Source of the DNA: Burkholderia sp. | GTDB taxonomy: Bacteria; Pseudomonadota; Gammaproteobacteria; Burkholderiales; Burkholderiaceae | Assembly (NCBI GenBank): GCA_031253835.1 | Contig: JAIRVP010000053.1 | Location: 1-64,000, forward strand | DNA length: 64,000 nt | Direction: 5' to 3' | Notes under the pieces: generated by a model | What the model saw: the letters and a program-made list of their open reading frames with translations, nothing else | The model's database searches: none | Told to the model about the DNA's origin: nothing | Part shown: in pieces, positions 18,509-28,172 of the stretch | Numbering within the stretch: the first letter of the stretch is position 1 | How the letters are laid out: the number at the start of each line of letters is the position of its first letter | Program-made: the position numbers and the translations under genes

Positions 18509-18526
18509 TTAGTCCATTCCGACGAT
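18509..18526 (+). promoter_or_regulatory. sulfation-locus dyad, copy 1
   Basis: TTAGTCC-ATTC-CGACGATT matches the dyad TTnGTCC-N4-GGACnAA, found perfectly in the cysD/DUF1214 intergenic region, at 12 of 14 defined positions. It lies about 164 bases before the SRPBCC gene and just upstream of the photolyase in the other direction. Probably a site for the locus regulator. Confidence 0.5.
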
Positions 18527-18689: not shown

Positions 18690-19163
18690 ATGACCAAACC
18701 CTCGAATCTCGTCACCTCGATCACCGTCGACATCGACGCCCCGGCCGCCGTCGTGTGGGAAGTACTGACCGACTTCCCGCGCTACGGCGAATGGAACACG
18801 TTTTGCGTCGGCTTCGAAACGACCGGCACGCTCGGCGATTTCGTGCACATGCAGGTGCGCATTCCGGGCACGGAGACCGTGATTCCCGTCAGCGAGATCC
18901 TCGTCGCCTGCGAGCCCGAGCGCCTGCTGTCGTGGGAGCAGCGCCCGACCGACGACAACAAGGACGCCGCGCGCCGCGACCAGTACATCGACGCGAACGG
19001 CGCGGAGCGCTGCCGCTATTTCACGACCGACCAGTTCCTCGGCGTCAACGCGGACACGATCATGCAGAATCACGGCGCCTGGGTGAAACAGGGCTTCGAC
19101 CAGTGCGCGCGCGACGTGAAGCAGCGCGCCGAGGCGCTGCATGCGGCACGCAAGCGCGCGTGA
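18690..19163 (+). CDS. SRPBCC (START-like) domain protein
   Basis: A 157-residue protein with the SRPBCC/polyketide-cyclase-like fold. It opens VTSITVDIDAPAAVVWEVL-TDFPRYGEWNTF, the standard first strand and helix. The hydrophobic-pocket strands continue with FVHMQVRIPGTETVIPVSEI and LLSWEQRP, and it ends with a long C-terminal helix. Such proteins bind or transform hydrophobic ligands. It is followed 13 bases later by a SnoaL-like gene and is convergent with the sulfotransferase operon. A shared dyad upstream suggests co-regulation, so it may act on the same hydrophobic substrate. Function unproven. Confidence 0.75.
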   Translation: MTKPSNLVTSITVDIDAPAAVVWEVLTDFPRYGEWNTFCVGFETTGTLGDFVHMQVRIPGTETVIPVSEILVACEPERLLSWEQRPTDDNKDAARRDQYIDANGAERCRYFTTDQFLGVNADTIMQNHGAWVKQGFDQCARDVKQRAEALHAARKRA

Positions 19164-19176
19164 CCGGGAGCGGCCG

Positions 19177-19629
19177 ATGCCCGATCTGCAAACGCTGTCC
19201 GACCACCACGACATCCGCGAGCTGGTCGTCGCGTATTCGAGCGCGATCGATGCACGCGACTTCGACGCGCTCGACGCGGTGTTCACGCCCGACGCGGCGA
19301 TCGACTATCGCGCGATGGGCGGCATCGCCGGCCGCTTTCCGGACGTGAAGGCGTGGCTGCGCGCCGTGCTGCCGCAGTTTCCGCAATACCAGCACTTGGT
19401 CGGCAACCTGTCGATCCGGCTCGATGGCGACACCGCGCGCGGCCGCACGATCTGCTTCAATCCGATGGAAGTCGCGCTGCCGGACGGCGGCACGCAGGTG
19501 ATGTTTCTCGGGCTGTGGTACGTCGACCGGTTCGTGCGCACCGCGCACGGCTGGCGCATTGCCGAACGCGTCGAGGAGCGTTGCTATGGCCACAACGTGC
19601 CGGCCGCGCTCGCGGGCGCGACCGGCTGA
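19177..19629 (+). CDS. SnoaL-like / NTF2-fold protein
   Basis: A 150-residue NTF2-like (SnoaL_4 type) protein. It starts LSDHHDIRELVVAYSSAIDA, then FDALDAVFTPDAAIDY, and ends FLGLWYVDRFVRTAHGWRIAERV, the usual cone-shaped alpha+beta barrel pattern shared by ring-hydroxylating dioxygenase small subunits, ketosteroid isomerase and dehydratases. GGGAG precedes the ATG at 19177. It forms a pair with the SRPBCC gene. Together these small-molecule pocket proteins suggest processing of a polycyclic or aromatic compound, but no specific reaction can be claimed. Confidence 0.78.
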   Translation: MPDLQTLSDHHDIRELVVAYSSAIDARDFDALDAVFTPDAAIDYRAMGGIAGRFPDVKAWLRAVLPQFPQYQHLVGNLSIRLDGDTARGRTICFNPMEVALPDGGTQVMFLGLWYVDRFVRTAHGWRIAERVEERCYGHNVPAALAGATG

Positions 19630-19641
19630 GCCGGCCACGAC

Positions 19642-19674
19642 GTGCGCCTCGTGCGATGGCCGCACGGCGCGCAC
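19642..19674. terminator. candidate bidirectional hairpin between convergent genes
   Basis: GTGCGCCTCGTGCG and CGCACGGCGCGCAC pair at 12 of 14 positions with a 5-base loop, midway between the convergent SnoaL and DHH genes. There is no T-run, so terminator activity is only suggested by position. Confidence 0.4.
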
Positions 19675-19690
19675 GTGGCGGGCCGCTGCA

Positions 19691-20671
19691 TCAATCGAGC
19701 CGGAACGCGGCCTCGAAACGCTCGGCGAACGCGTCGAACTCGGCTTCCGGCAGATGGTTGATGCCGCCCGCGCGCTTGCGCCCACCGCCGGTCGCGAAGC
19801 CGCGGCAGAACTCGTCGGCGCCGAGCGGCCGGCCGTCGGGCACGCGCACGCTGACGACGAGCCCGCCGTCCGCGCGCGGCGACAGCACCGCGAGCGCCGC
19901 ATGCGGCGCATTGCGCATCCGCTCGTTCGCGAGCATCCCCGTCGCGCGTCGCGCCCACGGTTGATCCGGCATCCGGACCAGCGTCGCGCCCGGCACCTCG
20001 CGCAGCGGCGCGAGCGCGCACGCGCGCGCCATGTCGTCGCGGTAGCCGTCGCGCAGCGCGGCGAACACGGCCGTCCCACGCACGAAGTCGAGCGGCTCGG
20101 TGCACGGCAGCATCGCGTCGGCGAGCGCCGCCGGATCGAAGTGCAGATCGCCGACGCACTCGCCGTACGCGTTGTAGTTCAGGTAGAGCCCGAGTTCGGC
20201 GAGCGTGCAGCGCTCGGCCGCGTCGATCCCGTGCTCGCGCGCGAGCGCGTCGCCGAGCGCCGGCAGTTCGTCGCCGAATGCCGCGACGATCGCCCAGCGC
20301 GCGTGCCGGCCGCCGAGATAGCGGTTCACGATCACACTCGTGCAGACGTCGGCCGATGTATCGATATGCGCGTCGAAACGCGGCTCGTCGGGCAGTTCGC
20401 CCGCGAAGTGATGGTCGAAATAGCGGACCGTCGCGCCGTCGCGCAGCAGCCGTGCGCATGCGTCGCGGTTCTGGTCGTGCGACACGTCGAGCACGGTGAC
20501 GAGGTCGCCCGCCTGCGCGTCGATCCGCTCGAGCAGCTTGATGTCGCGCTTCACGCCGGTCACGAGCGTGCCGTGAATGCCTTCCGCGACCCGCAGCTGC
20601 TGAAGCGCGCACAGGCCGTCGGCGTCGCCGTTGAACGCGAAAAAATGCCGCGCGTGTGGGGTGTCCTGCAT
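19691..20671 (-). CDS. DHH/DHHA1 family phosphoesterase, possible PAP phosphatase
   Basis: A 326-residue protein with DHH phosphoesterase motifs. FFAFNGDADGLCALQQL is motif I, LVTVLDVSHDQN is motif II, VRYFDHHFAG is the DHH motif, and HIDTSADVCTSVIVNRYL is motif IV. A C-terminal DHHA1 domain ends in the glycine-rich FATGGGRKRAGG. This is the layout of NrnA-like enzymes, some of which hydrolyse nanoRNA and 3'-phosphoadenosine-5'-phosphate (PAP). It is the last gene of the DUF1214-sulfotransferase-SDR operon, so removal of PAP, the by-product of PAPS-dependent sulfation, is an attractive role. This is inference from context. The start at 20671 has GGAG nine bases ahead; ATG 20686 is the alternative. 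Confidence 0.8.
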   Translation of the reverse strand: MQDTPHARHFFAFNGDADGLCALQQLRVAEGIHGTLVTGVKRDIKLLERIDAQAGDLVTVLDVSHDQNRDACARLLRDGATVRYFDHHFAGELPDEPRFDAHIDTSADVCTSVIVNRYLGGRHARWAIVAAFGDELPALGDALAREHGIDAAERCTLAELGLYLNYNAYGECVGDLHFDPAALADAMLPCTEPLDFVRGTAVFAALRDGYRDDMARACALAPLREVPGATLVRMPDQPWARRATGMLANERMRNAPHAALAVLSPRADGGLVVSVRVPDGRPLGADEFCRGFATGGGRKRAGGINHLPEAEFDAFAERFEAAFRLD

Positions 20672-20688
20672 GATCCGTTGCTCCATCG

Positions 20689-21480
20689 TCAAGGCATGAA
20701 ATCGCCGCCGTTCGCGTCGAGCGTCGCGCCCGTCACCGCGTTCGCGTAGTCGGACGCGAGAAACAGCGCCGCGCGTGCGCAGTCGTCGTCGGTCGGCAGC
20801 TTCGCGAGCGCAATATCGGACGCGATCGGCGCGATGACCTGCTCTTCCGTCATCCCGTATTCGGCGGCCGCCTGCCGGAAATACGTCTGCGTCGGCACAC
20901 CCCACATCCAGCCCATGTGGATGCTGTTCGCGCGAATGCCGTGCACGCCGAGTTCGCGCGCCAGGTATTTTGCCGCAACCGACAGCGCCCCCTTCGATAC
21001 AGCGTAGCCGCCCTCCCCTGCAAACGGCTTGCGGGTCGCCTGCGTGTTGATCATCACGATCGCGCCGCGCCGCTGCCGCTTCATGTGCGGCACGACTTCC
21101 TGCGTCAGCGCCATCGTGCCGAACACGTTGGTGTCGAACACCGCGCGCCAGCCGTCGAGGTCGGCTTCTTCCACCGGCTCCGGAAACGTGCCGTGCACGA
21201 ACGCGCTGTTCACGAGCGCATCGATCCGGCCGAAGCGCCCGACGGCCTGCGTCGCCAACTGCCGGCATTGCGCGCGGTCGGTGATGTCGGTCTTCACCTT
21301 CAGCACGTCGCAGTCGACGCCGAGCGCGCGGATCCGCGCTTCCGCGTCGTCGAGCTTCTCCATCGTGCGCGCCGCGACGACCACGCCGCGCGCGCCCTCG
21401 CGCGCGGCCTCGACCGCGAGCTTCACACCGAGCCCCGGCCCGATCCCGGAAATCACGACGATCTTGTCCTTCAGCAACAT
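20689..21480 (-). CDS. SDR family NAD(P)-dependent oxidoreductase
   Basis: A 263-residue classical short-chain dehydrogenase/reductase. The cofactor motif is VISGIGPGLGVKLA (TGxxxGxG variant with S for T). LVNSAFVHGT occupies the NAG position and has a serine. The catalytic residues are the Ser/Thr in MINTQATR and the Tyr-Lys in GGYAVSKGAL. The C-terminus VTGATLDANGGDFMP is typical. AGGAG precedes the ATG. It lies between the sulfotransferase and DHH genes, and probably reduces or oxidises a hydroxyl/keto group on the compound that is sulfated. Substrate unknown. Confidence 0.88.
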   Translation of the reverse strand: MLLKDKIVVISGIGPGLGVKLAVEAAREGARGVVVAARTMEKLDDAEARIRALGVDCDVLKVKTDITDRAQCRQLATQAVGRFGRIDALVNSAFVHGTFPEPVEEADLDGWRAVFDTNVFGTMALTQEVVPHMKRQRRGAIVMINTQATRKPFAGEGGYAVSKGALSVAAKYLARELGVHGIRANSIHMGWMWGVPTQTYFRQAAAEYGMTEEQVIAPIASDIALAKLPTDDDCARAALFLASDYANAVTGATLDANGGDFMP

Positions 21481-21521
21481 GGGTTGTCTCCTGGTTGTCG
21501 TTCGTCTCGCGTGCGTGGCTT

Positions 21522-22715
21522 TCAGCCGGCCGGCCGCAGGTGCCGCGCGCGATACGCGGCGAAGTCGTGCGCGAGCTGCGCGTCGGTGAAGCCGAAGCGC
21601 GCGATCGAATAGTCGTGCGCGGCGCGCTTGTCTCGGCCGTTGCGCGCCATCCAGCCGGTCATCGCCGCGCGCTGCTCGGCATCGACCGACATGCCGGCAA
21701 ACGCATAGACGGCCTCCGCGACGCCGAGCGGATTCGACACGGTGTCCTCGAATCGCACGTCGAGGAACCGGTCGGCCGGCAGCGCGTCGCGTGCCGCCAT
21801 CGCCGCGCCGATCGCGCGCGCCATCCCCGCGTTCCACTGCGCGCCGACGGCGAGCGGATCGGGCGCGTCCGCATACATCTGCCACAGCGTGTGCGCCATG
21901 CTCGCCATCGACGGAATCGTCTGCGCGGGATCGCGGTGCGTGAGCACGACCTGCGCGCGCGGAAACACGCGGCACAGCACGTCGATCGCATGCAGGTGCT
22001 GCGGCGTCTTCAGCAGCCAGCGCTGCGCCGGCGCCACGCCGCGCCGCGCCTTCTGCCACTGCAGGAACTGCAGCATCCGCTTCAGGTACGTGTAGACCGG
22101 CGTGAGATCCTGCCGTGCGAGCCACGCCGTGTAGCGCGGCACGTTCGCATACGAATCCATCGCGCACACGAACGAATGCTCCATCAGCATGAACTCTTCG
22201 TCGGCGAGCATCGCGTCGAGCGGATGAATCGTCAGGATCTGCGGAATGCAGTCGATCATCATCGCAACCTCGGCCTGCGCGCGCGCCATGCGGACGGCCG
22301 GCGCGTCGAGCGTCTCGCCGGCGAGCGGCGCCGGGTAGCGCGTTTCCCACCATGCGGCCGAATGAAAGCGCGGGTCGACGGCCAGCAGCCGCTGCAGCAG
22401 CGTCGTGCCCGTGCGCGGCAGGCCGACGATCACGAGCGGATCGTCGATCGCGATGTCCGCGATCTCCGGATGACGCCCGAAGTAATCCTCGACGACGAGC
22501 CGGTTCACGAGCTGGCCGACAAGCTTCTCGCGCATCATCTCCGCGCCGCGCGCGGACAGCTTCGCTTCGTCGATCAGCGAGGCGCACATCACGTCGAGCG
22601 CCTCGCGATACGGCCCGTCGCCGAACGCGGTGAGCCCGTTCGTGCGTGACACCGCCTCGGCGATCAGGCCGTCGGGAGCCAGCAGCGTACGAATCCGGTC
22701 GAGCGGCGCGTTCAT
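21522..22715 (-). CDS. PAPS-dependent sulfotransferase family protein
   Basis: A 397-residue sulfotransferase (Sulfotransfer_3-like). The 5'-phosphosulfate loop is seen in PLVIVGLPRTGTTLLQRLLA near residue 95. A 3'-phosphate binding segment RWLLKTPQHL precedes VFPRAQVVLTHRDPAQTIPS, the usual R-x-P-...-S pattern. The helical C-terminus DYSIARFGFTDAQL is typical of bacterial relatives. It overlaps the DUF1214 gene by ATGA, so translation is coupled. With a full PAPS synthase encoded divergently it most likely sulfates a small hydrophobic alcohol or phenol. Acceptor unknown. Confidence 0.85.
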   Translation of the reverse strand: MNAPLDRIRTLLAPDGLIAEAVSRTNGLTAFGDGPYREALDVMCASLIDEAKLSARGAEMMREKLVGQLVNRLVVEDYFGRHPEIADIAIDDPLVIVGLPRTGTTLLQRLLAVDPRFHSAAWWETRYPAPLAGETLDAPAVRMARAQAEVAMMIDCIPQILTIHPLDAMLADEEFMLMEHSFVCAMDSYANVPRYTAWLARQDLTPVYTYLKRMLQFLQWQKARRGVAPAQRWLLKTPQHLHAIDVLCRVFPRAQVVLTHRDPAQTIPSMASMAHTLWQMYADAPDPLAVGAQWNAGMARAIGAAMAARDALPADRFLDVRFEDTVSNPLGVAEAVYAFAGMSVDAEQRAAMTGWMARNGRDKRAAHDYSIARFGFTDAQLAHDFAAYRARHLRPAG

Positions 22716-23821
22716 GCGGCCTCCTTCAGCGTGGCGAGCTTCACGACGCGCGTGCGCGGATGCACCGGTTGCGCGGCGCCGACCCAGCGCCAGCAGAGCG
22801 TGCCGGTGCGATGCCCGGCCGTATCGAGCCAGTTCGCGTCGCCCGGCCGCGCGGCCGCGACGACGACCGTCACGCCGCCGTCGGCATTCAACCGTGCGCT
22901 GTGCTTGTTCACGCAGATGTCGAAGTGCCGGTAGTCGAGCGACTCCATCCAGTAGTTGTTGAGCTGCACGTTCCAGAAGTCGCAGTCGGGCACCGTGTCG
23001 ACGTCGATCACGAGCGCCTCGTCGTCGGCCAGCGCCCAGCACGAGTGGTAGTAGTAGATGTTCGGGTCGCCGCCGACCGACTGGCACAGCGCCTGGTCGG
23101 CGGGCGGCAGCGCGTTCACGTGCGACCGGTAGCTCGCGGCCCAGTCCGCGAACAGCTTCGACGTCTGCTCGACGAACTGCGCGGCGCGCGTGAGGCCGCC
23201 CTGCAGCACGAGCGGGTCGAGCGGCGCCGGGCGATCGCCGGCGCCGATGCGCTCGATCTTCAGTTGCGCCGGCGTTTCCGTGCGCCGGTCGAGGAAGGTC
23301 TGGCGCACGAGCAGCGCGTTCGTGCCGGGCTCCATGCGCACCCAGTTGCCCGCGCGCGGCGTCTCGCTCAATACGATCTCGAAGCTGCCGTCCGGTGCGA
23401 TCTCGAGCTGCTTCGCGTCGAGAAAACCCGTCTGCAGCATCTTGCCGTCGGTTTCATAGCCGCCCTTCTGCGTGCCGAAGCTCAGGTACGCGACCGTGCC
23501 GCGCCGCCCCGTCACGCGGTATTCGCAGCGGCCGTCGACGCGTGCGTACCGGTACAGGTTGTCGGGATTGTCCGCGCCGATCTTCGCGGTCTCGTGCGAC
23601 GGCGAGAAGAAGCCCGGCCACGCGCCGTCCGCGAATTCGACGTGCATTTCGAGCGCGATGCGCATCAGCCGGCTCAGGTAGCGGAAACCTTCCGCGCGCG
23701 TCAGCGGATCGTCCGGCGCTTCGGCGCGCAGGATCTGCTGTCCGCTGCGTTTCAGGGTGTCGCAGAAATCGGCCCAGGTCTGGCCCGAAAGCAAGGGTGT
23801 GGCACGTGTGTCGTCCGTCAT
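22712..23821 (-). CDS. DUF1214 domain protein
   Basis: A 369-residue protein related to DUF1214/DUF1254-type proteins. Recognisable stretches are RALRIALEMHVEFADG-like text near residue 50 (here LSRLMRIALEMHVEF), NPDNLYRYARVDGRCEYRV, YLSFGTQKGG and, near the C-terminus, DCDFWNVQLNNYWMESLDY. It has no signal peptide, so it is probably cytoplasmic. It is first gene of the four-gene operon DUF1214-sulfotransferase-SDR-DHH, with the 19-bp inverted operator pair just upstream. The molecular role of the family is not established. The tight coupling to a sulfotransferase suggests a partner or substrate-handling function. Confidence 0.75.
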   Translation of the reverse strand: MTDDTRATPLLSGQTWADFCDTLKRSGQQILRAEAPDDPLTRAEGFRYLSRLMRIALEMHVEFADGAWPGFFSPSHETAKIGADNPDNLYRYARVDGRCEYRVTGRRGTVAYLSFGTQKGGYETDGKMLQTGFLDAKQLEIAPDGSFEIVLSETPRAGNWVRMEPGTNALLVRQTFLDRRTETPAQLKIERIGAGDRPAPLDPLVLQGGLTRAAQFVEQTSKLFADWAASYRSHVNALPPADQALCQSVGGDPNIYYYHSCWALADDEALVIDVDTVPDCDFWNVQLNNYWMESLDYRHFDICVNKHSARLNADGGVTVVVAAARPGDANWLDTAGHRTGTLCWRWVGAAQPVHPRTRVVKLATLKEAA

Positions 23822-23876
23822 GTGTCGTCTCCGCCGATGGTCGAGCGCTCACCTTAAGCGCCGCTGCCGCGCGCCA

Positions 23877-23945
23877 CTTCGTCCGGGTGGACTAAGGAAA
23901 GATCCGCTCCCCTGCCGCGTGCCGGTTTAGTCCACCCGGACGAAG
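23877..23945. promoter_or_regulatory. perfect 19-bp inverted operator pair between the sulfation operons
   Basis: CTTCGTCCGGGTGGACTAA (23877-23895) is repeated exactly in inverted orientation at 23927-23945, separated by 31 bases (centres 50 bp apart). Each copy is itself a dyad TTnGTCC-N4-GGACnAA. The pair sits 56 bases before the DUF1214 gene and 91 before cysD, an ideal position for joint control of both operons. Copies with mismatches occur before the SRPBCC gene and before the LuxR gene. The likely binder is the LuxR-type protein encoded at 26985. Confidence 0.8.
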
Positions 23946-24035
23946 AGCGGCAGGCCGCTCGGTCGATACCGTTGGCGTCATGCACGAAACGCCGCACATG
24001 TCGCGCGGCACCGGCATGAAACAAGGAGACGAACG

Positions 24036-24932
24036 ATGTTGACCCACTTGGAGCGGCTGGAGGCCGAAAGCATCCACATCCTGCGCGAGGTGGTGGCCGA
24101 GAGCGAGAACCCGGTGATGCTGTATTCGATCGGCAAGGACAGCTCGGTCATGCTGCATCTGGCGATGAAGGCGTTCTACCCGGCGAAGCCGCCCTTTCCG
24201 CTGCTGCACGTCGATACAACGTGGAAATTCCGCGAGATGATCGCGTTTCGCGACGAGACGGCCGCGCGCCTCGGCCTCGACCTGCGCGTGCACGTCAACC
24301 CCGACGGCGTCGCGAACGACATCAACCCGTTCACGCACGGCTCGGCCGTGCACACCGACGTGTGGAAGACGCAGGGGCTCAAGCAGGCGCTCGATCACTA
24401 CGGTTTCGATGCCGCGTTCGGCGGCGCGCGCCGCGACGAGGAGAAATCGCGCGCGAAGGAACGCATCGTGTCGCTGCGCTCGGAACAGCATCGCTGGGAC
24501 CCGAAGCGCCAGCGCCCCGAACTCTGGTCGCTGTACAACGCGCGCAAGCGCAAGGGCGAAAGCCTCCGCGTGTTCCCGATCTCGAACTGGACCGAGCTCG
24601 ACATCTGGCAGTACATCCAGCTTCACGACATCCCGATCGTGCCGCTCTACTACGCGAAGGAGCGGCCCGTCGTCGAACGCGACGGCGCGCTGATCATGGT
24701 CGACGACGACCGGCTGCCGCTGCGCGACGGCGAGCAGCCGCAGATGCGCAAGGTGCGCTTTCGCACGCTCGGCTGCTATCCGCTGACGGGCGCGATCGAC
24801 AGCGATGCGACGTCGCTCGACGACATCCTGCAGGAAATGCGCGAGACGCGCACGTCCGAGCGCCAGGGACGACTGATCGACAGCGATTCGGCCGGTTCGA
24901 TGGAAAAGAAGAAACAGGAGGGATATTTCTGA
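24036..24932 (+). CDS. cysD: sulfate adenylyltransferase subunit 2
   Basis: A 298-residue ATP-sulfurylase small subunit (CysD/NodP), which forms adenylyl sulfate (APS) from ATP and sulfate together with CysN. The PP-loop is [50 protein letters not shown] and [12 protein letters not shown] are standard family motifs, and it ends KKKQEGYF as usual. AGGAG precedes the ATG. The stop overlaps the cysNC start by one base, showing translational coupling. Its placement opposite a sulfotransferase operon, not with cysH/cysI, points to PAPS for sulfation rather than cysteine synthesis. Confidence 0.95.
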
Positions 24933-26854
24933 TGGCACACGTCCTCATCGCGCCCGACGAACCCGCGCGCCACGCCCCCGCCGCGCCCGCCACCGGCGAC
25001 GCGGCCACGCCAATCCAGGACCTGCTGCGTTTCATCACGTGCGGCAGCGTCGACGACGGCAAGAGCACGCTGATCGGCCGCCTGCTGTACGAGTCGAACA
25101 TGCTGTTCGACGACCAGCTCACGCAGCTCGAAGCCGATTCGAAGAAAGTCGGCACGCAAGGCGGCGAACTCGATTTCGCGCTGCTCGTCGACGGCCTGTC
25201 GGCCGAACGCGAGCAAGGGATCACGATCGACGTCGCGTACCGCTTCTTCGCGACCGCGCGACGCAAGTTCATCGTCGCCGATACGCCCGGCCACGAGCAG
25301 TACACGCGCAACATGATCACCGGCGCGTCGACCGCCGATCTCGCGGTGATCCTGATCGACGCGCGCAAAGGCGTGCTCACGCAGACGCGCCGCCACAGCC
25401 ATCTAGTCGCGCTGATCGGCATCAAGCGCGTCGTGCTCGCGATCAACAAGATGGATCTCGTCGACTACGACCAGGCCGTGTTCGATCGCATCGACGCCGA
25501 CTATCGCGCGTTCGCGGCCGAACTCGGGCTCGCGGACATCGTCAGCATCCCGATGTCGGCGCTGCGCGGCGACAACGTGATCGCGCCGAGCGCACGGATG
25601 CCGTGGTATGCAGGCGCGTCGCTGATGCAGCATCTCGACCGCCTGCCGCTCGCCGCACGCGTGACGCGCGACGAACCGTTCCGGCTGCCCGTGCAGTGGG
25701 TCAACCGCCCGCACCTGAATTTCCGCGGCTACGCGGGCAGCATCGCGTCGGGCGAGATCCGCGTCGGCGAGCGCGTGCGCGTGCTGCCGTCCGGCAAGGA
25801 GAGCCGCGTCGCATCGGTGATCACGCAAAGCGGCGACAGCGACATCGCGCGCGCCGGCGACGCGGTGACGCTCACGCTCGCCGACGAGATCGACATCAGC
25901 CGCGGCGACATGATCGCGCGCGCCGACGCGCCGCCGGAAGTCGCCGACCAGTTCGAGGCGACGGTCGTGTGGATGCACGACGAGCCGCTGCTGCCCGGCC
26001 GCCCGTACCTCGTGAAGCTCGGCACGCAGACGGTCGGCGCGACCTGCGCGACGCCGAAGTACAAGATCGACGTGAACACGCGCGAGCATCTCGCCGCACG
26101 CACGCTGGCGCTCAACGAGATCGGCGTGTGCAACCTGAGCTTCGACCGGCCCGTCGCGTTCGATCCGTACGACCGCAACCGTCATACGGGCGGCTTCATC
26201 GTGATCGACCGCTTCACCAACGACACGGTCGGCGCCGGGATGCTGCACTTCGCGTTGCGCCGCGCGCACAACGTGCACTGGCAGGCCGTCGACGTCGATC
26301 GCGACGCGCGCGCGGTGCAGAAGGCCCAGACGCCGCGCATCGTGTGGCTGACGGGGCTGTCGGGCGCCGGCAAGTCGACGATCGCGAACCTCGTCGAGAA
26401 GCGGCTGCACGCGCTCGGCAAGCACACGTACCTGCTCGACGGCGACAACGTGCGGCACGGGCTCAATCGCGACCTCGGCTTCACCGAGGCCGATCGCGTG
26501 GAGAACATCCGGCGCGTCGCCGAAGTCGCGCGGCTGATGCTCGACGCGGGGCTCATCACGCTCGTGTCGTTCATCTCGCCGTTCCGCGCGGAACGCGAGA
26601 TGGCGCGCGCGATGGTCGGCCCCGACGAGTTCGTCGAGGTGTTCGTCGACACGCCGCTCGCGGTCGCCGAGGAACGCGATCCGAAGGGCCTGTACAAGAA
26701 GGCGCGGCGCGGCGAGCTGAAGCACTTCACGGGCATCGACTCGCCGTACGAGCCGCCCGCGCAGCCCGAGTTGCGCGTCGACACGGTGGCCGAGTCGCCG
26801 GAGGAAGCGGCCGACCGCATCGTCGCGTACCTGCTGCGCGAGCGCGCGGCGTAA
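24932..26854 (+). CDS. cysNC: bifunctional sulfate adenylyltransferase subunit 1 / APS kinase
   Basis: A 640-residue fusion (NodQ-like). The N-terminal GTPase (residues about 25-460) has [17 protein letters not shown] and NKMD, followed by EF-Tu-like domains II and III. The C-terminal APS kinase (residues about 465-640) has a second P-loop, [15 protein letters not shown], and VNTPLAV-type text ([21 protein letters not shown]). The enzyme drives ATP sulfurylation by GTP hydrolysis and then phosphorylates APS to PAPS. The fused architecture gives complete PAPS synthesis with cysD. A LuxR-type regulator follows 130 bases downstream. Confidence 0.95.
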
Positions 26855-26900
26855 GCGCCGCAGGCGGGCAGCCCGGCGGTTGCCCGCCTGCCCGCGTCAT

Positions 26901-26918
26901 CTACTCCGTTCGGATGAC
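26901..26918 (+). promoter_or_regulatory. degenerate copy of the sulfation-locus dyad
   Basis: CTACTCC-GTTC-GGATGAC keeps the TCC-N4-GGA core of TTnGTCC-N4-GGACnAA (10 of 14 defined bases) about 67 bases before the LuxR-type gene. It could mediate autoregulation. The match is weak on its own and gains support only from the neighbouring copies. Confidence 0.35.
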
Positions 26919-26984
26919 GCAAGCTGCCGGACGGTCGGTATGCTGGTCCGGGAACCCTTCATCCCGACCCAGGAGAACACGAGC

Positions 26985-28172
26985 ATGCGGATCGCGCTGG
27001 CGCCCGGCGATACGGCCACGCACGACGGCTTCGACGACGCGGCCTGGACGGCACGCGAACTCAGCGCGTGGCTCGGGCTCGTCTATCAGGGGCCGTCGGA
27101 AGCGACACCGTGGGCCGGCTTTCTCGAAGCGGCTCGCGTGCAACTCGACGCAAGCTTCACGACGCTCGTGCTGCGCAATCCGGGCGGCGCACGGCACGGG
27201 CTCATCATCAACGCATCGACGCACGGCCCGCTGCTGCCCGGCGAACCGTCGTACAGCGAGCAGTTCTATGCACTGTGCCCGTTCCTCGATCAACCGCCCG
27301 GCCAGGTCTTCACGGCCGATCGCCTGTTCGGCGAAACCGCATGGCGCGCGCACGACTTCTACCGGCAATACCTGCAGCCGCTCGACCTGCGCTACATCCT
27401 CGGCGCGAACCTGCGCGGCGAACGCGGCGTCGAATGCGCGTTCTTCGTGAGCCGCGCGCACGGCAGCCGCGACTTCGACGCCACCGAGCGCGCGCAGGTC
27501 GCGACGCTGCTGCCGCACCTGCAGCGCGCGGTCGAGCTGCATGCGGCATTCGACGTGCTCGATGCCGAACGCGCGCTGTACGCGGGCACCGTCGACCGGC
27601 TCGATGTCGGCACCGCGATCGTCGACGAGGATGGCCGCGTGATCAAGCGCAACCGCATCGCCGAGCGGCTGATCGAGCAGCAGGACGGGCTGTGCGTGCG
27701 CCAGGAGCGGCTCCACGCGTCGTGCCCGCTCGACGAGCGCCGGCTGCAGAAGGCGCTGCAGGCCGCGCTCGAGCATTTCCGCGCGGGTGCGCTCTCGCGC
27801 ATCGAAGCCACCACGCTGTCGCGCCCCGGCGGCGCCATGCCGCTGAGCGTGCTGCTGCGCCCGCTCGCGCCCTATCGCGGCGCCGAGGACCGCCAGCACC
27901 GGCCGGCCGTCGCGGTGTTCGTGCGCGATCCCGCGTCGTCGCCGCAGACGTCGCGCGACATGCTGCACCGGCTGTTCCGGCTCACGCCGATGGAGACCGA
28001 GATCGCGCTGCTGCTCGTCGACGGGCTGACGCTCGACGAAGCGGCCGCCGCGACGGGCATCACGAAGAACACTGCCCGCGCGCACCTGCGCGGCATCTTC
28101 GCGAAAACAGGCGCGACGCGGCAGGCCGTGCTCGTGAAGACGCTGCTCAACAGCGTCGTGTCGATGGCGTAG
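26985..28172 (+). CDS. LuxR family transcriptional regulator
   Basis: A 395-residue regulator with a C-terminal LuxR/GerE helix-turn-helix, LTPMETEIALLLVDGLTLDE then TGITKNTARAHLRGIFAKTG. The preceding 300 residues show no receiver or AHL-binding signature. The middle, DVLDAERALYAGTVDRLDVG to IVDEDGRVIKRNRIAERLI, looks like a PAS-type sensor. Start set at MRIALAPGD because AGGAG precedes it; an in-frame ATG 45 bases upstream is possible. It is the only regulator in the sulfation block, and GTCC-N4-GGAC dyads lie before the flanking operons, so it is the probable regulator of the locus. Ligand unknown. Confidence 0.85.
   Translation: MRIALAPGDTATHDGFDDAAWTARELSAWLGLVYQGPSEATPWAGFLEAARVQLDASFTTLVLRNPGGARHGLIINASTHGPLLPGEPSYSEQFYALCPFLDQPPGQVFTADRLFGETAWRAHDFYRQYLQPLDLRYILGANLRGERGVECAFFVSRAHGSRDFDATERAQVATLLPHLQRAVELHAAFDVLDAERALYAGTVDRLDVGTAIVDEDGRVIKRNRIAERLIEQQDGLCVRQERLHASCPLDERRLQKALQAALEHFRAGALSRIEATTLSRPGGAMPLSVLLRPLAPYRGAEDRQHRPAVAVFVRDPASSPQTSRDMLHRLFRLTPMETEIALLLVDGLTLDEAAAATGITKNTARAHLRGIFAKTGATRQAVLVKTLLNSVVSMA

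Follow-up and report, generated by a model that had tools for sequence, protein, structure and literature searches.

Dedicated PAPS genes beside a sulfotransferase are already known, both from the Bacteroides cholesterol sulfation cluster introduced below and from rhizobia, where NodP and NodQ, a pair resembling CysD and CysNC, supply 3'-phosphoadenosine 5'-phosphosulfate (PAPS) to the sulfotransferase NodH for the sulfation of Nod factors. Here we describe a nine-gene cassette of Burkholderia sp. (positions 18690-28172 of the window, a 64,000-nt stretch of contig JAIRVP010000053.1 in assembly GCA_031253835.1, G000:C78:1-64000 in our numbering), in which cysD and cysNC face genes for a DUF1214 protein, a sulfotransferase (ST), a short-chain dehydrogenase (SDR) and a DHH-type phosphoesterase. 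We propose that this locus probably serves steroid catabolism in proteobacteria as a dedicated sulfation module, one that depends on PAPS and is controlled by a LuxR-type protein. As in the NodPQ-NodH system, a dedicated CysD/CysNC-like pair would feed a sulfotransferase; unlike the cassette, the rhizobial system has a carbohydrate acceptor and a nodulation context, and it is not known to have a DUF1214/SDR/DHH set.

In Bacteroides thetaiotaomicron, the cluster BT_0411-BT_0416 carries out cholesterol sulfation and its expression responds to sterols, according to the available part of the report (PMC9417993). There, as here, putative PAPS synthesis genes adjoin a sulfotransferase gene, and the Bacteroides transferase has been demonstrated to sulfate a steroid. 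The same part of the report describes the cluster for the formation of cholesterol sulfate and not for steroid degradation, and among the genes it names there is no DUF1214, SDR, SRPBCC or phosphatase for adenosine 3',5'-bisphosphate (PAP), for all of which the cassette has genes or a candidate (PMC9417993). The Bacteroides transferase had been chosen by BLAST with the human SULT2 enzymes (PMC9417993), and it is probably of the Sulfotransfer_1 type. In Mycobacterium tuberculosis, Rv3529c, Rv3530c and Rv3531c are consecutive and are listed as cholesterol catabolic genes, with Rv3530c as a possible oxidoreductase, in the portion of the source at hand (PMC6429209). Like the cassette as we read it, this triplet is linked to steroid catabolism. 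As for regulation, TeiR/TesR of Comamonas testosteroni is a LuxR-type regulator needed for testosterone degradation, which the accessible text describes as a polar membrane protein acting via kinase activity (PMC6678751). The cassette resembles this system in pairing a LuxR-type regulator with apparent steroid genes, and differs from it in that TeiR is reported as a membrane protein with kinase activity. Four homologs of the cassette LuxR-type protein (29-35% identity) occur in C. testosteroni ATCC 11996.

In our searches of the open-access literature, no source described a sulfotransferase as taking part in aerobic steroid degradation. Hits on bacterial steroid sulfation concerned, as far as their available text goes, host enzymes, one sentence of an SDR review, or Bacteroides cholesterol sulfation, and the accessible parts of the testobolome and bile-acid reviews contain no bacterial sulfotransferase step. 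Word searches of PMC4810484 and PMC6678751 likewise gave no such step. No open-access publication on DUF1214 together with a sulfotransferase was found, DUF1214 alone leading only to eukaryotic genome quality, and nothing on the cassette stood among the literature matches listed for Burkholderia PAPS genes, Comamonas sulfation, KshA/Rieske steroid degradation or bacterial terpene sulfation. What is new here is the core of DUF1214, ST, SDR and SRPBCC genes, the exchangeable putative PAP phosphatase, the palindrome that ties the transcription units together, and the co-occurrence of all this with genes of steroid catabolism.

Results

Gene content of the cassette

The genome (7.55 Mb in 83 contigs, 95% complete) was annotated by comparing Pfam and NCBIfam profile scores with their cut-offs. 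A preliminary description made from the letters of the window had placed nine genes (DUF1214, ST, SDR, DHH, cysD-cysNC, LuxR-type, SRPBCC and SnoaL) between 18690 and 28172, and all nine are present at those positions and on those strands. The ST (397 aa; 21522-22715, minus strand) belongs to Sulfotransfer_3 (144.9 bits versus 27), and its motifs VIVGLPRTGTT and LTHR.P..TIPS.AS, which we take to be the PAPS-binding motifs for the 5'- and 3'-phosphosulfate, are intact. Both are conserved in ≥97% of the 81 STs compared, so that a loss of PAPS binding, the objection that the preliminary description had raised against its own proposal, is not seen at the level of motifs. The closest solved structures of the ST are 2zq5 and 2z6v, the former being, as we take it, the Stf1 sulfotransferase encoded by Rv3529c; Rv3529c-Rv3531c are not known to be accompanied by genes for a PAPS synthase or a LuxR protein. 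Among the named loci, the nearest relative of the ST is that of Burkholderia arboris (97%). The DUF1214 gene (369 aa; 22712-23821, minus; 38.8 versus 25) precedes the ST gene and overlaps it by 4 nt, and the SDR (263 aa; 20689-21480, minus; NF005909, 368 bits versus 258) and the DHH-type protein (326 aa; 19691-20671, minus) are encoded behind it. PDB entry 6ans, titled only 'Uncharacterized protein', is very close to the DUF1214 protein (E 3.1e-244; window 22715-23821).

On the opposite strand, cysD, for the small subunit of sulfate adenylyltransferase (298 aa; 24036-24932, plus; NF009214, 576.3 versus 413), overlaps by 1 nt with cysNC (640 aa; 24932-26854, plus; NF004035, 1064.9 versus 715), which encodes the large subunit fused to an adenosine 5'-phosphosulfate (APS) kinase (PF01583, 231.6 versus 21.1), and the LuxR-type gene follows (395 aa; 26985-28172, plus). 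At the other end, also on the plus strand, lie an SRPBCC gene of the Polyketide_cyc2 family (157 aa; 18690-19163; 42.1 versus 27.4) and a SnoaL_4 gene (150 aa; 19177-19629; 111.8 versus 24), the product of which weakly matches the bile acid 7alpha-dehydratase BaiE (4leh; E 1.2e-4).

Conservation across genomes

A scan of our genome collection with the ST gave 214 pattern matches and from these 197 relatives. We kept the 80 best-matching loci with flanks of up to 10 kb; by this choice, all 80 are at about 60% identity or more. A gene was counted as present when it gave a tblastn match at a set threshold, and part of the flanking genes were called with a simple codon-score caller. The loci come from Burkholderia, Pandoraea, Paraburkholderia, Cupriavidus, Collimonas, Pseudomonas, Halopseudomonas and Comamonas. 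DUF1214 and the ST occur in all 80 of them, cysD, cysNC and the SDR in 78 each, and the SRPBCC gene in 71, while DHH was found in 60, the LuxR-type gene in 59, a CysQ-type gene in 19, and two different kinds of SnoaL gene in 21 and 23 loci. The few gaps are in L123 (no cysD or cysNC), L120 (no cysD), L128 (no cysNC), and L121 and L153 (no SDR). This linkage is far beyond chance and supports the unity of the system that had been proposed for the window. Within the window's own genus, the ST is present in 34 of 65 genomes including the window's, at 81-97% identity in the others; a strain-specific island is ruled out by this spread together with the 80 loci, and the synteny is wide rather than limited to one strain. 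In the family, a DUF1214 homolog was found in 62 of 398 genomes and 5 of 25 genera, and in a set of 398 genomes from the phylum, 10 matched the ST at E ≤ 1e-35.

The loci fall into two architectures. In type A (60 loci), DHH is present, a LuxR-type gene is nearby (59 loci; L171 is without it) and cysD is mostly divergent from the ST operon. In type B (20 loci, without DHH), the genes run in one direction in the order cysD-cysNC-DUF1214-ST-(EthD)-SnoaL-SRPBCC-SDR; the cassette LuxR-type gene is found in none of these, and a more distant LuxR paralog (42-52% identical to a Cupriavidus one) in four.

Further observations concern individual groups of loci. In 19 type B loci (e.g., L161:5005-6909 and L172:4949-6868), CysD is encoded by a single open reading frame of 614-639 codons with an extra N-terminal part of about 330 aa, which is conserved in the 19 loci and gives winged-helix matches (HTH_33/HTH_29) under the Pfam cut-offs; the protein resembles a domesticated transposase-like part fused to sulfate adenylyltransferase. 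In 11 Cupriavidus loci (L124, L131, L135, L137, L148, L150, L152, L157, L159, L164 and L174), the genes after the cassette encode a RibBA paralog, an esterase of the Abhydrolase_3 family, and one more SDR and LuxR-type protein each, and 10 of the 11 also carry luciferase-like and acyl-CoA-dehydrogenase-type proteins (one member per cluster was examined), which suggests a local flavin supply. A plasmid of Tsukamurella (Actinomycetota; L177:6004-13006) has, besides a helix-turn-helix gene, cysC-cysD opposite DUF1214-SDR-ST in the same divergent layout, with proteins 32-50% identical to those of the cassette.

Association with steroid catabolism genes

We examined the co-occurrence of the cassette with KshA, the steroid 9alpha-hydroxylase, counting as strong KshA a KshA_C protein at E ≤ 1e-50. 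In the own genus, strong KshA was found in 33 of the 34 ST-positive genomes, the one miss being an 82%-complete assembly, and in 3 of the 31 ST-negative ones. Among the 398 genomes of the family, 61 have both DUF1214 and KshA, one has DUF1214 only (at 29% identity), 21 have KshA only, and 315 have neither. When DUF1214 is taken at 50% identity or more, KshA is present in 60/60 genomes from five genera versus 22/338 others (Fisher p ~5e-53, kinship ignored). Outside the own genus, DUF1214 and KshA lie on one contig, 25-54 kb apart, in 21 of 28 such genomes; the distance comparison covered 29 genomes (these 28 and G016), leaving out two own-genus genomes without a KshA entry.

The window's genome has apparent steroid genes on another contig, C53, where a block encodes FadD3, an OYE-like protein, a SnoaL-like protein, an SDR and KshA together with a divergently transcribed paralog of the cassette LuxR-type gene (39% identity). 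Further genes of C53 are HsaD-like, DUF1329-like, a hydratase, an acetaldehyde dehydrogenase, an aldolase, a second KshA, a thiolase and FadE-like genes, the SnoaL, thiolase and most FadE names being given by resemblance only. KshA_C scores reach 249.5 bits and the FadD3 equivalog NF005801 is well matched (737.1 versus 657); the HsaD-like gene is under its cut-off (198 versus 400). In Pseudomonas loci, KshA and FadD3 lie within 10 kb of the cassette itself, and the KshA-like protein of L129 matches the solved KshA at E 7.5e-103. Homologs of the FadD3-KshA-OYE-SnoaL-SDR block are in the flanks of five Pseudomonas loci (L132, L133, L139, L141 and L144), and at least one C53 homolog other than the SDR, at 50% identity or more, is in 25 of the 80 loci. 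The taxonomic range agrees with this: the available part of a survey of steroid degraders predicts them in Burkholderia, Comamonas, Cupriavidus, Novosphingobium, Pseudomonas and Sphingomonas and marks growth on testosterone for C. necator and P. resinovorans (PMC4810484), and among our named loci, those of Cupriavidus necator, Pseudomonas resinovorans and Comamonas testosteroni overlap with those genera. In Sphingobium TomTYG64, ST and DUF1214 genes are adjacent and lie among ring-cleavage genes; isolates of the TomTYG series are from soil treated with alpha-tomatine, according to a report whose accessible part names neither TomTYG64 nor a sulfotransferase (PMC10653915).

Several results weigh against a steroid acceptor. 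The association takes no account of phylogeny; in the contig comparison, which covered all 32 own-genus genomes with DUF1214, the gene shares a contig with strong KshA in one (G016) and is on a separate contig in the other 31; none of the 21 loci from Burkholderia and Pandoraea (L097-L117) showed a C53 homolog other than the SDR at ≥50% identity; and 22 of the 82 genomes with strong KshA are without a close DUF1214, so that the module would be accessory to steroid degradation. The cassette itself is not among the named steps of the steroid pathway. The separate contigs and the KshA genomes without DUF1214, as well as the other neighbours of the Cupriavidus loci (RibBA, esterase and luciferase-like monooxygenase), would also fit a cassette that sulfates a non-steroid hydrophobic compound, such as a plant terpenoid, a xenobiotic or a secondary metabolite of the cell's own, with steroid genes co-occurring by way of large catabolic genomes. 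We regard this as unlikely, because the association holds in 60/60 genomes over five genera, with distances below 60 kb in 21/28 genomes outside the genus, and because KshA and FadD3 are so near in Pseudomonas. We favor the steroid-linked module, and the hydrophobic, perhaps polycyclic, acceptor that had been suggested from the SDR, SRPBCC and SnoaL folds gains indirect backing from this link. The term self-contained, on the other hand, does not fit the locus metabolically, as the apparent steroid genes are on C53 and are near the cassette mainly in other genera.

Sulfate activation

The cysD-cysNC pair was proposed to be a PAPS supply dedicated to the ST, and its linkage to the cassette in 78 of the 80 loci supports this. 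The genome has a second cysD, 49% identical to that of the cassette, on contig C47, in a locus of a reductase, an APS reductase, cysD, cysN and cobA. CysN (TIGR02034, 534 versus 336) and CysH of the APS-reductase type (TIGR02055, 290 versus 235) are above their cut-offs, and the sulfite/nitrite reductase-like gene is under its own. Assimilation thus has its own genes, and since CysH is of the APS-reductase type, it needs no PAPS. The possibility that cysDNC is the only assimilatory copy, which the preliminary description had named as damaging to its proposal, is ruled out by the C47 locus. A different concern is that CysD and CysN are generally assimilatory enzymes, and the cassette pair might be a redundant assimilatory copy that came to lie opposite the ST operon by accident. 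We consider this very improbable: the co-distribution of cysD with the cassette argues strongly against it, the common palindrome (described below) still accompanies cysD in L125 and L128, where cysD is at another place, and assimilation is accounted for by the C47 locus. Two further APS kinases are encoded in the genome, one on C9 and one as a 607-aa fusion on C67, so the cassette is not the sole possible source of PAPS. The C67 protein (C67:102393-102839; L184:6286-8109) has its APS kinase in the C-terminal third, and its first 400 residues have no NCBIfam match at E 1e-20.

A candidate PAP phosphatase

The preliminary description had named the DHH-type protein as a candidate for clearing PAP. 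Across the 80 loci, 60 have DHH only, 19 have a CysQ-type gene only, none has both, and neither is present in L120, where the contig breaks off within cysNC; a candidate partner for PAP clearing is thus found in 79/80 loci. Nineteen type B loci extend beyond cysD, and in each of them the CysQ-type (Inositol_P) gene lies on the opposite strand, ~1 kb upstream of cysD; two CysQ-type proteins that we checked meet the TIGR01331 equivalog (288.3 and 296.2 versus 228.8) and are under the stricter NF008182. In the ST tree, which has very long outgroup branches, the type B loci form a clade with strong support, within which one DHH locus, L175 of P. linyingensis, is nested; two DHH/CysQ changes are thus forced by well-supported branches. 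The placement of the DHH gene varies: in Collimonas (L142), it overlaps the stop codon of cysNC, and in L143 and L175, it is transcribed apart, with palindromes in the intergenic stretch before it that are common to the divergent neighbour. In the window's genome, no CysQ above the cut-off was found, the best match being 98 bits to part of an inositol-1-monophosphatase-like protein. From the exchange with the CysQ-type gene, which we regard as the best evidence, the placement in L142, L143 and L175 and the lack of a CysQ in the genome, the DHH protein is likely the PAP phosphatase of the cassette, and we propose it as a stand-in for CysQ.

The DHH label itself stands by motif and falls short by profile. 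N-G-D-A-D-G, D62, D86-H87-H88, D134 and GGGR are invariant in 33 sequences, and these motifs (DxD, D, DHH, D and GGG) are presumably catalytic; of the 33 homologs, 24 give a Pfam DHHA1 match, at best with E 3.4e-5, and 12 a DHH match, at best with E 0.0018, but the window's protein scores 15.2 against the Pfam DHH cut-off of 28.1 bits. Besides this score, the small number of exchange events weighs against the assignment, as does the fact that neither a single-sequence nor a profile search found a PDB relative of the protein. Distant homologs (~44-45% identity) are also encoded on two Vibrio plasmids and one Paraburkholderia plasmid with no sulfotransferase beside them, those of Vibrio (~44%) being annotated as 'DHH family phosphoesterase' and that of Paraburkholderia phytofirmans as 'hypothetical protein'; a Variovorax record was without annotation. 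Such homologs and the low profile score would be expected if the protein were an ordinary nanoRNase or a general phosphoesterase, rather than the enzyme that removes PAP for the cassette. This alternative seems rather improbable in view of the mutual exclusion with the CysQ-type gene, the inclusion of DHH in the cysDNC operon of L142, the palindromes that precede it in L143 and L175, and the genome without a CysQ above the cut-off.

The palindrome and the LuxR-type regulator

The shared operator that had been noticed between DUF1214 and cysD is a perfect 19-nt inverted repeat (23877-23895 and 23927-23945, without strand), each arm of which is also a copy of the palindrome TTMGTCCNNNNGGACKAA; a weaker copy with two mismatches lies 5' of the SRPBCC gene (18509-18526, plus). 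A search of the whole genome with an 18-base arm and up to three mismatches returned only the two places in the window, and these are also the only exact sites of the palindromic consensus. With one mismatch, the palindrome has four further places in the genome, and these are uninformative because a reversed-pattern control is nearly equal (5 and 5 versus 6 and 6). We then counted a gene as preceded by the palindrome when TTMGTCCNNNNGGACKAA occurred with up to two mismatches within 350 bp upstream, for which 0.39% of shuffled stretches were positive. In type A loci, it precedes DUF1214 in 60/60, cysD in 56/59 and SRPBCC in 43/51, versus ST in 0/60, SDR in 1/58, cysNC in 0/58, SnoaL in 0/21, DHH in 2/60 and LuxR in 5/59. 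In type B loci, it precedes DUF1214 in 1/20, cysD in 0/19 and SRPBCC in 0/20. In L125 and L128, where cysD is relocated, the palindrome is still with it. In nine type B Pseudomonas loci (L127, L129, L149, L155, L156, L158, L161, L163 and L176), a palindrome with up to two mismatches was seen before a DUF1329 gene (9/9), although it is absent from the cassette genes of these loci.

The LuxR-type label is again a qualified one: the GerE domain is found (residues 333-384), but at 20.0 bits versus the Pfam cut-off of 23.5, and a protein under this cut-off may still work as a LuxR regulator. The claim that the cassette has its own regulator agrees with the distribution, as the LuxR-type homolog is in 59/60 DHH-type loci and 0/20 others and the palindrome follows the same split. 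This co-distribution (both in type A, neither in type B bar one site) ties the palindrome to the LuxR-type gene, and we suggest that the LuxR-type protein would bind it. A further point against the steroid link is that the palindrome with up to two mismatches was not found at the KshA promoter of C53. With up to three mismatches, the KshA-promoter region of C53 has 7 sites versus 1.85 in shuffles (L200) and 6 versus 1.64 (L201; one with two mismatches), from which we draw no inference.

Discussion

Gene content, motifs, linkage, the DHH/CysQ exchange, the distribution of the palindrome, the separate assimilatory locus and the kshA association are observed directly in the sequences. The families of the proteins predict PAPS synthesis, sulfate transfer and PAP removal, and linkage and co-occurrence point to the class of the acceptor; all activities and the acceptor are accordingly worded here as predictions from sequence. 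In the model that we propose, CysD and CysNC would convert sulfate and ATP to PAPS, and the Sulfotransfer_3 enzyme would transfer the sulfate group to a hydroxyl of a steroid or a steroid-derived intermediate, releasing PAP. The DHH protein, or the CysQ-type protein in the sister group, would hydrolyse PAP so that the transferase is not inhibited. The SDR, SRPBCC, SnoaL and DUF1214 proteins may act on the substrate or product by preparing it, holding it or processing it further, and the LuxR-type protein would switch the three transcription units through the palindromes before them.

A more speculative possibility, which we hold to be doubtful, is that sulfation serves as a catabolic activation, in which the hydroxyl of a steroid or ring fragment, by itself a poor leaving group, is turned into a sulfate ester and SnoaL, SRPBCC or DUF1214 eliminates the sulfate to give a double bond or a ring opening. 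The sulfate may instead be a tag that makes the product more soluble. A search by regular expression alone, run on the proteins predicted from the 80 loci, returned no sulfatase motif, and this result and the weak match of SnoaL to BaiE are compatible with such a role. If true, it would be a new type of reaction in aerobic steroid breakdown, perhaps common to the Rv3529c-Rv3531c triplet.

Aerobic steroid degradation is well studied, and the sulfation of a steroid intermediate, if it does take place, would add a costly and unexpected reaction to it. It would explain why this gene set is conserved in Burkholderia, Cupriavidus, Paraburkholderia, Pandoraea, Collimonas, Pseudomonas and Comamonas, would give a role to 6ans, a solved protein without an assigned function, and would offer a lead for the mycobacterial Rv3529c-Rv3531c genes.

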